Assembly: GCF_027587175.1 (NCBI RefSeq)
Contig: NZ_JAPCID010000009.1
Span: forward strand, 1-64,000
DNA: 64,000 nucleotides
Source of the DNA: Solirubrobacter deserti
GTDB lineage: Bacteria > Actinomycetota > Thermoleophilia > Solirubrobacterales > Solirubrobacteraceae
Direction: 5' to 3'
This document shows positions 6,751 to 11,669 of the stretch, one piece after another. A model generated the notes under the pieces. That model was not told the DNA's origin. It saw only the letters and a program-made list of their open reading frames with translations, and did not search any database. The position numbers and the translations under genes were made by a program. The stretch's first letter is position 1. Each line of letters starts with the position of its first letter.

Positions 6751-7419
6751 ATGTCGGAGCTCAACCTCATCCTCCTGGGGCCCCCGGGGGCCGGTAAGGG
6801 CACGCAGGCCGCGCGGCTGCGCGAGGACTTCGGGCTGCCCTACATCGGCACGGGCGACCTGCTGCGCGAGCACAAGGAGAACAAGACCGAGCTCGGTCTG
6901 CGCGCGCAGGAGTTCATGGACAACGGCGACCTCGTCCCCGACGAGCTCGTGATCTCGATGATCATCGAGAAGATCGAGGAAGAGGGCGAGGACGGGTTTC
7001 TGCTCGACGGCTTCCCGCGCACGGTCGGCCAGGCCGACGCGCTGAGCGAGGAACTCGAGAAGCTGGGCCGCCGGCTGACGGCCGCGCTGCTGGTCGACGC
7101 GCCGGACGAGGTCGTGATGTCGCGGCTGAGCGGGCGGCGTCAGTGCTCGAACGGGCACCTCTACCACGTGGAGTTCGACCCGCCCAAGCATCCGGACGTG
7201 TGCGACCAGGACGGCAAGCCGCTGTTCCGGCGTAAGGACGACGAGCCCGAGACGATCGCGAAGCGGCTCGCCACCTACCACAAGCAGACCGAACCACTCC
7301 GGGACTACTACGAAGAGCGCGGATATCTGCGACGCTTCGACGGCACGCGCGACAAGACCGAGGTCCACGACCACATTCGCGCGACCTTGGCGACCCTTCG
7401 CCTCGAGGAACGGCTGTGA
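6751..7419 (+). CDS. adk: Adenylate kinase
   Basis: 222 residues. Catalyses ATP + AMP = 2 ADP. P-loop GPPGAGKGTQAARL near the N terminus, AMP-binding LLDGFPRT (about 88-95), and a long LID. The LID has CSNG and CDQD where zinc-binding relatives carry CxxC and CxxC/D, so two Cys remain, with a nearby His and Asp. The stop overlaps the map GTG. Confidence 0.97.
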   Translation: MSELNLILLGPPGAGKGTQAARLREDFGLPYIGTGDLLREHKENKTELGLRAQEFMDNGDLVPDELVISMIIEKIEEEGEDGFLLDGFPRTVGQADALSEELEKLGRRLTAALLVDAPDEVVMSRLSGRRQCSNGHLYHVEFDPPKHPDVCDQDGKPLFRRKDDEPETIAKRLATYHKQTEPLRDYYEERGYLRRFDGTRDKTEVHDHIRATLATLRLEERL

Positions 7420-8201
7420 TCATCAAGAAATCCCCCGCCGAGATCGACCAGATGGCCGCGGCGGGGGAGATCCTGGTTCGAACGATGGACCTGCTGGCGG
7501 GCAAGATCCGCCCGGGCGTGACCACGGCGGAGCTGGACGCGGCGGCCGAGAAGTACATCCGGTCGCAGGGCGCGACGCCGGCGTTCAAGGGCTATCGCGG
7601 CTTCCCGGGCTCCACCTGCCTGTCCCCGAACGACATGGTCGTGCACGGCATCCCGGGCAAGTTCAAGCTCTCGCGCGGGGATATCCTGAGCGTGGACATC
7701 GGCGTCATCAAGGACGGCTGGGTCGCGGACGCGGCTCGCACCTTCCCGGTCGGCGAGGTCTCCGCGGTCGCGGCGAAGCTGCTGGACGTGACCGAGGGCT
7801 CGTTGTTCGCCGCGGTCGAGCAGTGCCGCCCCGGCAATCGCCTCGGCGACGTCTCGCACGCCGTCCAGGAGTTCGTCGAGGCCCAGGGCCTGTCGATCGT
7901 TCGCTCGCTGGTCGGCCACGGCATCGGCCGCGACATGCACGAGGAGCCGCAGATCCCGAACTACGGCCCCGCCGGCAAGGGCCCCGTGCTCGAGGAGGGC
8001 ATGGTGCTCGCCGTCGAGCCGATGGTCAACGCCGGTCGCCACATGGTCCGTATGGGCGACGACGGCTGGTCGATCTTCTCCCAAGACGGCTCGCTGGCCG
8101 CCCACTTCGAGTTCACGATCGCCGTGACCGCCGACGGGCCGCGCATCCTCACGCCGTGGCACCACCCGGAGGCCGCCGCCTCCGCGCCCGCCGCAGCGTA
8201 A
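7416..8201 (+). CDS. map: Methionine aminopeptidase, type I
   Basis: 261 residues from GTG 7416, overlapping the adk TGA. Removes initiator Met from nascent proteins. Metal ligands sit in the usual motifs: VDIGVIKDGWVADAART (two Asp), GHGIGRDMHEEPQI (His), AVEPM (Glu) and FEFTI (Glu). An Ala/Pro tail of about 12 residues follows the core. The last 53 bp overlap the opposing Vps62-like gene. Confidence 0.97.
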   Translation: MIIKKSPAEIDQMAAAGEILVRTMDLLAGKIRPGVTTAELDAAAEKYIRSQGATPAFKGYRGFPGSTCLSPNDMVVHGIPGKFKLSRGDILSVDIGVIKDGWVADAARTFPVGEVSAVAAKLLDVTEGSLFAAVEQCRPGNRLGDVSHAVQEFVEAQGLSIVRSLVGHGIGRDMHEEPQIPNYGPAGKGPVLEEGMVLAVEPMVNAGRHMVRMGDDGWSIFSQDGSLAAHFEFTIAVTADGPRILTPWHHPEAAASAPAAA

Positions 8202-8967
8202 GCAGCACCAGCGCCGCCAAGGCGAACAGTCCGCCGGCGGTCATCGCCTTCTCGGGCGCGTCGCAGCGCCCGACCGCGTTGCAGTCGACCTGGCACTCAC
8301 GGGCACCGGCGGCGAACGCGTTCGCGTCCCAGCGAGTGGGCTGGAACGCCGGTCCCAGCGGGGAGTCCTGCTCCGGCGGAACGAGCTTTGAGGCGCGCGA
8401 GCTGCCCCACGGGTGCGGGTCCCGCATCCACGGCGGGCTTGTACGCGTGATCTCGACCACGTCAGGCATCGCGATGTCGCCGAGGCCGTCGGCCTCATCG
8501 TTCGGGTCCGGCCACAGCCGGTCGCGCGTCCCGGGCTCGAAGTACGAAGCATGCGATCCGTGCGCGGCGTACACGATCGGGCGGCCGCCACCCCAGAAGC
8601 GCATGCCGCCTGTGTGGCAACGCTCGGCGCCGGAGTGCTGGCCGTAAACCGCCTCGACGAGCCGGTCGTTCTCGTCGACGCGGTACTGCGCGAGCTCCCA
8701 GTCGCCTTCGTGCCGGCCGGTCCGAACGATGCCCCGATCCTGGTCCTGGTAGTCGTAGTAGAGCCAGTACTGGAACCAGGTGCCGCCGTCGTCGGCCGGG
8801 CTCGCGCGGGCGTAGAGGACGGGTCGGCTGCCGTGGACGCCGGTGAGCGGGTGACGTTCCTGCGCGTCGTGGACGACGACGGGAGCGAACGCGGTCAGCG
8901 TGGCGGCGGTGGCTGTGGAGATCAGCACCTGCGGCACGGTACCCGCGAGCGGGTCGGGGGCGAGCAC
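8149..8967 (-). CDS. Vps62-related (DUF946-like) membrane or secreted protein
   Basis: 272 residues from GTG 8967; an in-frame GTG ten codons later is also possible. A weak hydrophobic N terminus (VLISTATAATLTAFAPVVV) is followed by a domain with TWFQYWLYYDYQ, RHEGDWELAQY and VYAAHGSHASYF, a pattern I associate with Vps62/DUF946-like proteins. A C-terminal hydrophobic helix (GLFALAALVLLTL) followed by RRARRRR looks like a tail anchor. Cys pairs near the C terminus (CQVDCNAVGRCD) could form disulfides. Function unknown. It converges on map and separates it from rpmJ, where infA usually lies. Confidence 0.75.
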   Translation of the reverse strand: MLAPDPLAGTVPQVLISTATAATLTAFAPVVVHDAQERHPLTGVHGSRPVLYARASPADDGGTWFQYWLYYDYQDQDRGIVRTGRHEGDWELAQYRVDENDRLVEAVYGQHSGAERCHTGGMRFWGGGRPIVYAAHGSHASYFEPGTRDRLWPDPNDEADGLGDIAMPDVVEITRTSPPWMRDPHPWGSSRASKLVPPEQDSPLGPAFQPTRWDANAFAAGARECQVDCNAVGRCDAPEKAMTAGGLFALAALVLLTLRRARRRRPPGGATA

Positions 8968-9555: not shown

Positions 9556-9939
9556 ATGGCACGCATCGCAGGAATCAACATCCCGCTCAACAAGCGCGTG
9601 GAAATCGGACTGACCTACATCTACGGGATCGGTCGTCCGACCTCCAACGTCATCCTGGCCCAGCTGGGCATCGAGCCGGACCGCAAGGTCCGCGACCTCA
9701 CGGACGACGAGGTTTCGAAGCTGCGCGACATCATCGACCGCGACTTCGTGGTCGAGGGCGACCTTCGCCGTGAGCGCAGCCAGAACATCAAGCGCTTGAT
9801 GGAGATCGGCTGCTATCGCGGTCTGCGCCATCGCCGCGGGCTGCCGGTGCGCGGCCAGAACACCAAGACCAACGCTCGCACGCGCAAGGGCCCGAAGCGC
9901 ATGCAGGTGGCCGGCAAGAAGAAGGCAGGTAAGAAGTAA
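9556..9939 (+). CDS. rpsM: 30S ribosomal protein S13
   Basis: 127 residues, [21 protein letters not shown], with the C-terminal [20 protein letters not shown] and a Lys-rich tail. S13 forms subunit bridges from the 30S head. Its stop shares a base with the rpsK ATG. Confidence 0.97.
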
Positions 9940-10334
9940 TGCCCGCTCCCCGCCGCCCCCAGCGTGGTCGCCGCAAGGTCAAGAAGAACGTCCCGATCGG
10001 CCAGGCGCACATCAAGACGTCGTTCAACAACACGATCGTCGCGCTGACCGACCGCGAAGGCAACGTGATCGCGTGGGAGTCTGCCGGCGGTGCCGGCTTC
10101 AAGGGCTCGCGCAAGTCGACCCCCTTCGCCGCGCAGGTGACGGCTGACGCCGCCGCGCGCAAGGGCATCGAGCAGGGCATGCAGAAGGTCGAGGTCTTCG
10201 TGAAGGGCCCGGGCTCGGGCCGCGAGACCGCGATCCGCTCGCTCCAGGCGGCCGGCCTCGAGGTCACCGGCGTCAAGGACGTCACCCCGCAGGCTCACAA
10301 CGGCTGCCGGCCCCGGAAGCGGCGCCGCGTCTAA
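9939..10334 (+). CDS. rpsK: 30S ribosomal protein S11
   Basis: 131 residues. Conserved blocks [18 protein letters not shown] and the C-terminal [18 protein letters not shown] are intact. S11 lines the platform of the 30S subunit. It is followed after 12 nt by the rpsD relic. Confidence 0.97.
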
Positions 10335-10346
10335 CCCCGAGTTCCA

Positions 10347-10600
10347 ATGGCACGCCATACCTCCCTCCAGTGCGAGCAGGCCCGCCGCGAGCGGCAGAAG
10401 AGAACGACGTGATCACGTTCAAGGCGCAGTCCGACGCCGAGAACACCATCCGCGACGCGACCGAGCTCGTGGCGCAGGTGCCCGCCTGGTTGCAGGCCGA
10501 CCACGATCAGCTCACCGCGAAGGTGCTGCGCCATCCCGAGCGCGCGGAGATCGCCGCGCCGGTCCAGGAGCAGCTCATCGTGGAGCTCTACTCGAAGTAG
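10347..10600 (+). pseudogene. rpsD: Ribosomal protein S4 (rpsD) relic with large internal deletion and frameshift
   Basis: This is the normal rpsD position between rpsK and rpoA. A first short frame (10347-10412) encodes MARHTSLQCEQARRERQK, matching the S4 N terminus (MARYTGPxCRxxRRE in relatives). It then stops at a TGA overlapped by a GTG (10409) in another frame. That frame encodes 63 residues ending VQEQLIVELYSK, the S4 C terminus, preceded by VPAWLQADHDQLTAKVL. About 120 central codons, including the S4 RNA-binding domain, are missing. A functional S4 must be encoded elsewhere. The GTGA overlap would still allow both fragments to be translated. An assembly error is the main alternative. 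Confidence 0.8.
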
Positions 10601-10682: not shown

Positions 10683-11669
10683 ATGCTCGACTTCCAGATC
10701 CCCCGGATCACGTCCGAATCGGTTGAGGAGAACCGCGGACAGTTCGTGGTTGAGCCGCTTGATCGCGGCTTCGGCTACACGTTCGGGAACTCCCTGCGTC
10801 GCGTGCTGCTGGCCAGCCTGGCCGGTGCTGCCGTGACGTCGGTCCGGATCGAGGGGGTGGCGCACGAGTTCTCGACCATCAAGGGCGTGACCGAGGACGT
10901 GACGGACATCGTCCTCAACCTCAAGGGCATCGTGTGCCGCATGCACTCGGACGCGACCGAAGTCGAGGCGCCGCTCGTCGTGACCGGTCCGGGCGAGATC
11001 ACCGCGCGTGACATCGACCTGCCCTCCGGCGTCGAGATCCTCAACCCGGACGCGCACATCGCGACGCTCGACAAGAAGACCAAGCTCGAGCTCTACCTCA
11101 CGATCGGGCGTGGCCGCGGCTACCGTCCGGCCGAGGAGAACAAGTCGCCCGATCAGCCGATCGGCGTGATCCCGATCGACTCGATCTTCTCGCCGGTCCG
11201 CCGCGTCGCCTACTCCGTCGAGCAGGCCCGCGTCGGCCAGCGCACGGACTTCGACAAGCTCACGCTGGACATCGAGACCGACGGCTCGATCGACCCGCAG
11301 GCCGCCCTGCGCGAGGCGGCCGAGATCCTGATCTCGAGCCTGTCGATCTTCACCGACGAGGACCGCATCGAGGACCTGCGTCAGGGCCACGCGAACCTGC
11401 CGCTCGAGAACGGCGGCGGCCCCGGCGGCAACGCGCTCGCCCCGGGCGGCCAGCGCGGCGGCGGCCCGATGGACGACATCCTCATCGAGGAGCTCGAGCT
11501 CGGCGTCCGCTCCTACAACTGCCTCAAGCGCGCCGGCATCCAGACCGTCGGCGACCTGGTTTCGAAGTCGGAGGGCGAGCTCGCCGCCATCCCGAACTTC
11601 GGCAAGAAGTCGATCGACGAGGTCATCGAGACCCTGTCGCAGCGCGGCCTGACCCTCCGGACGGACTAA
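10683..11669 (+). CDS. rpoA: RNA polymerase alpha subunit
   Basis: 328 residues. N-terminal dimerisation domain with FVVEPLDRGFGYTFGNSLRRVLL, a Gly-rich linker (about residues 238-262, ENGGGPGGNALAPGGQRGGG), and the C-terminal DNA/UP-element-binding domain with LELGVRSYNCLKRAGIQTVGDL. The start is ATG 10683 after a TTAGGAAC ribosome-binding site; a TTG lies one codon upstream. The 82 bp between the rpsD relic and rpoA contain no obvious second promoter. Confidence 0.98.
   Translation: MLDFQIPRITSESVEENRGQFVVEPLDRGFGYTFGNSLRRVLLASLAGAAVTSVRIEGVAHEFSTIKGVTEDVTDIVLNLKGIVCRMHSDATEVEAPLVVTGPGEITARDIDLPSGVEILNPDAHIATLDKKTKLELYLTIGRGRGYRPAEENKSPDQPIGVIPIDSIFSPVRRVAYSVEQARVGQRTDFDKLTLDIETDGSIDPQAALREAAEILISSLSIFTDEDRIEDLRQGHANLPLENGGGPGGNALAPGGQRGGGPMDDILIEELELGVRSYNCLKRAGIQTVGDLVSKSEGELAAIPNFGKKSIDEVIETLSQRGLTLRTD

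Follow-up and report, generated by a model that had tools for sequence, protein, structure and literature searches.

A decaying four-cysteine rpsD gene in the alpha operon of Solirubrobacter deserti and a putative iron-controlled, cysteine-less S4

We analysed a 64,000-nucleotide window of the Solirubrobacter deserti genome (contig NZ_JAPCID010000009.1, positions 1 to 64,000), in which the alpha operon of ribosomal protein genes holds, between rpsK and rpoA, only the remains of rpsD, the gene that encodes ribosomal protein S4. Following Chen et al. 2009 (PMC3087516), the four-cysteine form of S4 is called C+ and the cysteine-less form C-. It is secure that these remains are the remnant of the ancestral C+ rpsD of the operon, which was displaced by a C- S4. 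As to how this came about, we consider it rather likely that the C- S4 was ancestrally an iron-controlled spare and that the loss of its iron box was followed by the decay of the C+ gene. The relic follows a path of evolution that is already known and is seen here in mid-decay; what is new in it is the apparent link to an iron box.

The relic comprises two open reading frames (ORFs) on the forward strand that lie in different frames and overlap in the letters GTGA at 10409-10412. The first (10347-10412, 21 amino acids) contains S4 codons 1-18, followed by three out-of-frame codons and a stop. The second (10409-10600, 63 amino acids, S4-like) lies inside a frame that is open over 10370-10600 and reads S4 codons 144-206 from a GTG at 10409; the C-terminal part as a whole (10401-10600) begins inside codon 141 and ends with the stop at 10598-10600. 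Alignment with the intact genes of the congeners G081 and G072 revealed a single deletion of 367 nucleotides that runs from codon 19 into codon 141 and therefore changes the frame between the two parts, its junction being placed at 10400-10401 with an ambiguity of about one base. The sequence-only reading had described an rpsD deletion relic that lacked its central codons, and this was confirmed by the two ORFs, their overlap, the absence of codons 19-140 and a match of the C-terminal frame to the NCBIfam rpsD model (E-value 3.6e-15, model positions 134-202 of 202). This frame scored under the whole-protein cut-off of the model because it is partial. None of the three relic frames that were submitted to Pfam matched; in an intact S4 the Pfam models extend over residues 3-146, a region that the deletion has largely removed. 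The likeness of both fragments to S4 was thus borne out by a profile for the C-terminal part, whereas the 21-residue piece had no profile match and could be recognised by alignment, sharing 13 of 18 residues with the N-terminal end of the intact G081 protein, with a score that none of 2000 shuffles equalled. No full-length rpsD reading frame is present at the locus, which is a relic and no gene.

A search of the whole genome (7.09 Mb in 129 contigs, 97.3% complete) for PF00163 returned a single match, on contig 48. The intact S4 encoded there is 207 amino acids long, scored above both NCBIfam rpsD cut-offs and has no cysteine in residues 1-40. The C-terminal part of the relic is identical to the C+ S4 of G081 at 58 of 63 positions (92%) and to the C- S4 of its own genome at 33 of 61 (54%). 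The relic therefore does not derive from the intact copy: the operon once encoded a C+ S4, and the S4 that remains in the genome is of the C- form. Concerning the C+ signature C-x2-C-x13-C-x4-C, the relic has kept Cys9, has alanine in place of Cys12 and has lost the other two cysteines with the deletion, whereas G081 and G072, whose genes are intact, retain all four. The two forms fell into separate clades in a tree of S4 proteins, and synteny of the C- S4 locus was found in all five congener genomes compared. The earlier suggestion that S4 had moved or been duplicated was right in that the genome does contain an intact rpsD at another place, but the operon gene was replaced by another S4 lineage rather than relocated. 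This agrees with Path B of Chen, Roberts and Luthey-Schulten (PMC3087516), who described it for F. magna and M. flagellatus: a C- gene is gained outside the alpha operon and the C+ gene is then lost. In S. deserti and its relatives, likewise, C+ belongs to the operon, C- lies outside it, and C+ was lost later from the operon. Unlike in Path B, the decay can be followed in stages here and the C- gene bears an iron box while C+ is still present; the available portion of that paper reports no relic of the lost gene, and its authors found no control site for the C- gene.

An S4 match was found in 110 of the 121 genomes of the family, and the scores formed two classes, 106-125 bits for C+ (except for one broken gene, in G068) and 76-99 bits for C-. 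According to this score, by which the S4 kind was assigned in all 110 genomes, the sequences having been read for part of them, 14 genomes have both kinds, 23 only C- and 73 only C+. The interval between rpsK and rpoA measured 695-782 nucleotides in all five C+ genomes in which it was read, and 123-351 nucleotides in all 16 such C- only genomes, four of these intervals including up to 27 nucleotides of rpsK. C+ has thus been lost repeatedly, and two congeners, as well as members of other genera, have both forms. Within the genus, G081 and G072 have an intact C+ gene, and the interval is 351 nucleotides long in S. deserti and in G048, a second assembly of the same species, 240 in G033, 232 in G061 and 135 in G012; the junction differs between relatives, the deletions of G033 and G061 having other ends than that of S. 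deserti. The N-terminal scrap shows six non-synonymous differences from G081 in 18 codons, compared with none in two pairs of intact genes. Over the last 33 codons, the ratio of non-synonymous to synonymous substitutions (dN/dS) relative to G081 was 0.18 in S. deserti, 1.0 in G061 and 2.4 in G033; in the latter two, frames of 45-48 codons are open from a GTG. Judged from these ratios, the gene loss looks recent in S. deserti, and the remains in its sisters look to be drifting freely. The relic itself is most likely without function.

The evidence for an ancestral role of iron comes from a palindrome that recurs upstream of the C- S4 gene in genomes that have both genes. The 150 nucleotides before the start of this gene were searched for the 14-bp box TTAGGNNNNCCTAA, in which ten positions were scored. 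A match of at least 9/10, no more than 80 nucleotides from the start, was found in 12 of the 14 two-gene genomes. None of the 19 C- only genomes with an identified rpsK had one, the best score there being 8/10 (G061); Fisher's exact test gave p = 2.6e-7, uncorrected for kinship. For three of the 19 (G037, G076 and G093), in which the interval after rpsK was unread, the absence of C+ means that there is a single S4 match. When the genera were counted by their state, the second family of the order included, 8 of 9 had the box where both genes were present, compared with 0 of 5 where only C- was (p = 0.003); in that second family, G481, which has both genes, scored 10/10, and G424, which is C- only, 6/10. 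Four further genomes with one C- match (G066, G080, G094 and G099) were kept out of the 19, since rpsK was not found in them and C+ may sit in a gap; G080 and G094 have perfect boxes, and G066 and G099 have none. Among random 150-nucleotide windows of the same loci, with the boxes unmasked, 1.3% reached 9/10. The C- S4 gene of S. deserti itself has a best score of 7/10, which was equalled by 29% of shuffles, and no site of 9/10 or better occurs in the surrounding 11 kb. In its congeners G033 and G012 a -10-like TAGGGT is retained, whereas the palindrome has lost its other arm. In six genomes (G010, G031, G046, G067, G094 and G008) the nearest likely upstream gene is co-directional and ends before the box, which therefore leaves S4 as the target; at the remaining boxed loci the divergent neighbour varies between genera, the gene calls there being mechanical and the genes unnamed. 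Inspection of the C- S4 tree, in which the deeper forks are partly weak, suggests about five joint losses of box and C+, because boxed genomes separate the unboxed C- only groups (the own genus, g22, g21, g19 and G424) from one another.

The 14-bp pattern is the IdeR consensus that was proposed by a structural study (PMC8464063). Over 30 genomes it occurred 0 to 25 times in each, compared with 0 or 1 for the reversed control. S. deserti has ten sites; among the eight tested by Pfam, seven lie beside iron-type genes (periplasmic binding protein, FecCD permease, siderophore-interacting protein, HtaA and ferritin) and one beside a transglutaminase-like gene. The tested neighbours in two-gene genomes were FTR1 permeases, siderophore-interacting and periplasmic binding proteins, HtaA and one decarboxylase. 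Altogether, 18 of 20 tested neighbours belong to iron, haem, siderophore or ferritin families, the tested proteins having come from 19 of 38 fetched non-S4 box loci and having been picked by eye as likely targets. DtxR C-terminal domains were present in all 12 genomes searched. From the box and its regulon we infer that C- S4 was placed under the control of an IdeR/DtxR-type regulator. The operator is the same as in the IdeR/DtxR/DmdR1 regulon of Actinobacteria, as are the mostly iron, haem and siderophore genes among the other tested targets; unlike in that regulon, a stand-alone C- S4 gene would be a target here, one that was not found in the literature searched. For C. diphtheriae, a prediction from 2004 had the whole secY-truA operon, including rpsD, regulated by DtxR (PMC524172). 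A transglutaminase-like protein adjoins an iron box in both S. deserti and G081 (PF13369 in L139; L138, L146 and L150 by eye) and is a possible further member of the iron regulon.

The four cysteines of the C+ S4 of this order align with those of its best structural match, which we take to be Thermus S4. In ribosomes of Thermus thermophilus, the cysteines of uS4 have been described as holding an Fe4S4 cluster (PMC6555806, PMC10450194), and we infer by analogy that the C+ S4 of this order carries the same. Given such a cluster, an iron-repressed and cluster-free S4 would be an iron-sparing spare. According to the explanation that we favour, the C- S4 of the ancestor would have been a conditional spare, which an IdeR/DtxR-type regulator kept repressed by way of the TTAGGNNNNCCTAA box in its promoter. 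Iron scarcity would have induced C- S4, and 30S subunits would then have been built without the Fe4S4-bearing C+ S4. Once the box was lost, C- S4 would have become constitutive and C+ S4 dispensable, and C+ rpsD would have decayed stepwise, to the 351 nucleotides of S. deserti and the 240, 232 and 135 nucleotides of its sisters.

Beyond the order, we drew on 396 genomes sampled from the phylum, among which were G000 and 11 members of the family. Two S4 matches each were obtained in seven genomes from outside the family (G481, G472, G317, G286, G454, G162 and G223). A box score of 10/10 was found in G472, 9/10 in both G317 and G286, and 8/10 in G454. The C- S4 of the two-copy genomes outside the order forms a separate deep lineage, and that of G286 is 98% identical to named Streptomyces loci. 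In G223 both S4 genes (L183 and L185) bear cysteines and have an unusual N terminus, and this genome was left out. The best 80 of at least 595 pattern matches were taken as loci of the Streptomyces kind, 77 of them being titled Streptomyces. In these best 80 loci the score for a 19-bp box was bimodal, with 57 loci at 14-17 of 19 and 23 at 8-10, the best score elsewhere within each locus being 10 to 13. A C+ copy, as judged by score, was present in 18 of the 80 genomes, and all 18 were boxed (Fisher's exact test, p = 0.001).

Several observations weigh against the iron-controlled spare. G072, of the own genus, and G034 have both S4 genes and no box of 9/10 or better within 10 kb of the C- gene. 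They are possible intermediates that precede the loss of C+ (loci L059 and L072), and the proposed order of events, in which the box is lost before C+, is drawn from these two genomes. Outside the order, G162 has both kinds of S4 and no box. Among the Streptomyces-kind genomes with only C-, 39 of 62 are boxed, and therefore the box alone is no sign of a dispensable copy. Moreover, a divergent DUF2470 gene lies across the box in 56 of the 57 boxed loci and in none of the 23 unboxed ones (tblastn), and a divergent gene of this kind is also found in G472, G317, G286 and G454 (identified by Pfam for one of them). This gene may be the actual target of the box in Streptomyces loci, and Streptomyces as independent proof was weakened, since the box is mostly confounded with it. 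Among the best 80 loci only L246, from Streptomyces smaragdinus RB5, separates the box and C+ from the DUF2470 gene: it has both, lacks that gene, and the gene upstream runs in the direction of S4 and ends before it. The Streptomyces data are thus compatible with iron control, which a single locus favours, but do not amount to proof. As to the metal, the cysteines of C+ S4 may bind zinc instead of a cluster. Finally, over its 63 codons the C-terminal scrap of S. deserti has a dN/dS of 0.19-0.23, to be compared with 0.09-0.25 for intact pairs; because this is within the range of the intact pairs, the decay is evident from the deletion, from the N terminus and from the sister species, and not from the C-terminal frame. 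As a side observation, the DUF2470 gene is exemplified by L193:645-1445 on the minus strand, and 23 of the 80 loci have neither gene nor box.

A wider reading, which in our judgement is evenly balanced between holding and failing, is that an iron-sparing ribosome switch between C+ and C- S4 under IdeR/DtxR control exists in the phylum. In this case, two unrelated C- lineages, one in the order of S. deserti and the other of the Streptomyces kind, would have gained boxes independently, and loss of the box would freeze the switch, upon which the Fe-S-type S4 would decay into relics. If iron control of a cluster-free S4 is true, it would explain why Chen et al. (PMC3087516) looked for Zur control of C- S4 without finding it and would suggest a cause for the departure of rpsD from the alpha operon, which a 2024 review treats as an open question in many lineages (PMC10931766). 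Within the literature searched, S4 would be the first core ribosomal protein that is swapped for iron and not for zinc, C+ S4 would be predicted to carry an Fe-S cluster outside Thermus too, and the relic series of one genus would represent the last step of the swap caught in stages. Among the open-licence papers searched in PubMed Central, we found none that ties C- S4, an iron box and the disappearance of the Fe-S-type S4 together.

The same loss could have come about by displacement without any metal switch: a transferred C- S4 made one of two copies redundant, one of them drifted away and the boxes are incidental. We regard this as unlikely, though it is the strongest of the alternatives. 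It would account for the repeated loss of C+, and the path of Chen et al. (PMC3087516) is described in the available portion of their paper without regulation. The C- S4 of genus g9 (L068, L069 and L070) is found in two parts of the tree, a placement that suggests transfer of the gene between genera and fits this explanation too. However, a box in 12 of 14 genomes as opposed to none of 19, in varied gene neighbourhoods, is hard to call incidental.

A zinc-sparing switch, in which C- S4 would be a spare of the Zur type, is in our view improbable. Its model is the known Zur control of paralogues of L31, L33, S14, S18 and L28 (PMC3087516), which in Bacillus, Streptomyces and Mycobacterium are likewise metal-free spares expected under metal shortage; C- S4 differs from them in its box of the IdeR/DtxR kind and in having a C+ partner that binds Fe4S4 in Thermus. 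Zur control was rejected when the palindrome proved to be the IdeR pattern, which is the proposed consensus of that regulator and whose other tested sites are mostly near iron, haem and siderophore genes. Chen et al. (PMC3087516), in the portion of their paper that is available, reported that the C- S4 paralogues which they examined had no Zur site nearby. Our own scan for AT-rich palindromes (15-19 nucleotides, at least half AT) in 20 regions upstream of C- S4, a crude one that used no Zur profile and also missed the iron box, listed none.

It is very doubtful that the two mini-ORFs are still made as a coupled pair and regulate the alpha operon, the leftover role which the sequence-only reading had thought conceivable. 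Both frames are open and joined by GTGA, the C-terminal frame of S. deserti has a dN/dS of 0.18-0.23, and G033 and G061 retain their GTG frames. The low ratio over the last 33 codons makes recent loss, or translation of the scrap in S. deserti, possible. Against regulation, most of the two RNA-binding S4 domains is deleted, the deletions differ between sister species, and the N terminus has accumulated the non-synonymous differences that intact pairs lack. The frames of G061 and G033 have the high ratios given above, and G012 has been reduced to 135 nucleotides. Nor was an operator found at the Rfam threshold, the Alpha_RBS pseudoknot before rpsM reaching 16.7 bits where 38 are needed (E-value 1.7); a diverged operator is possible. 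An assembly artefact that conceals a full rpsD is a negligible prospect, since the 351-nucleotide interval is repeated letter for letter in the second assembly of the species, which speaks against assembly collapse, and the sole S4 match in this 97% complete genome is the C- copy.

The remainder of the alpha operon is intact on the forward strand, as had been read from the sequence. The relic lies between rpsK (S11, 9939-10334) on its 5' side and rpoA (10683-11669) on its 3' side, both of them intact. The names of the other open genes, rpmJ (encoding a cysteine-bearing L36, 9429-9542), rpsM (9556-9939) and rplQ (L17, 11676-12032), were assigned by reading their sequences. The usual occupant of the space between map and rpmJ is infA, and none was seen there in the ORF lists. 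The space between map (7416-8201) and rpmJ holds an ORF on the minus strand at 8149-8967.
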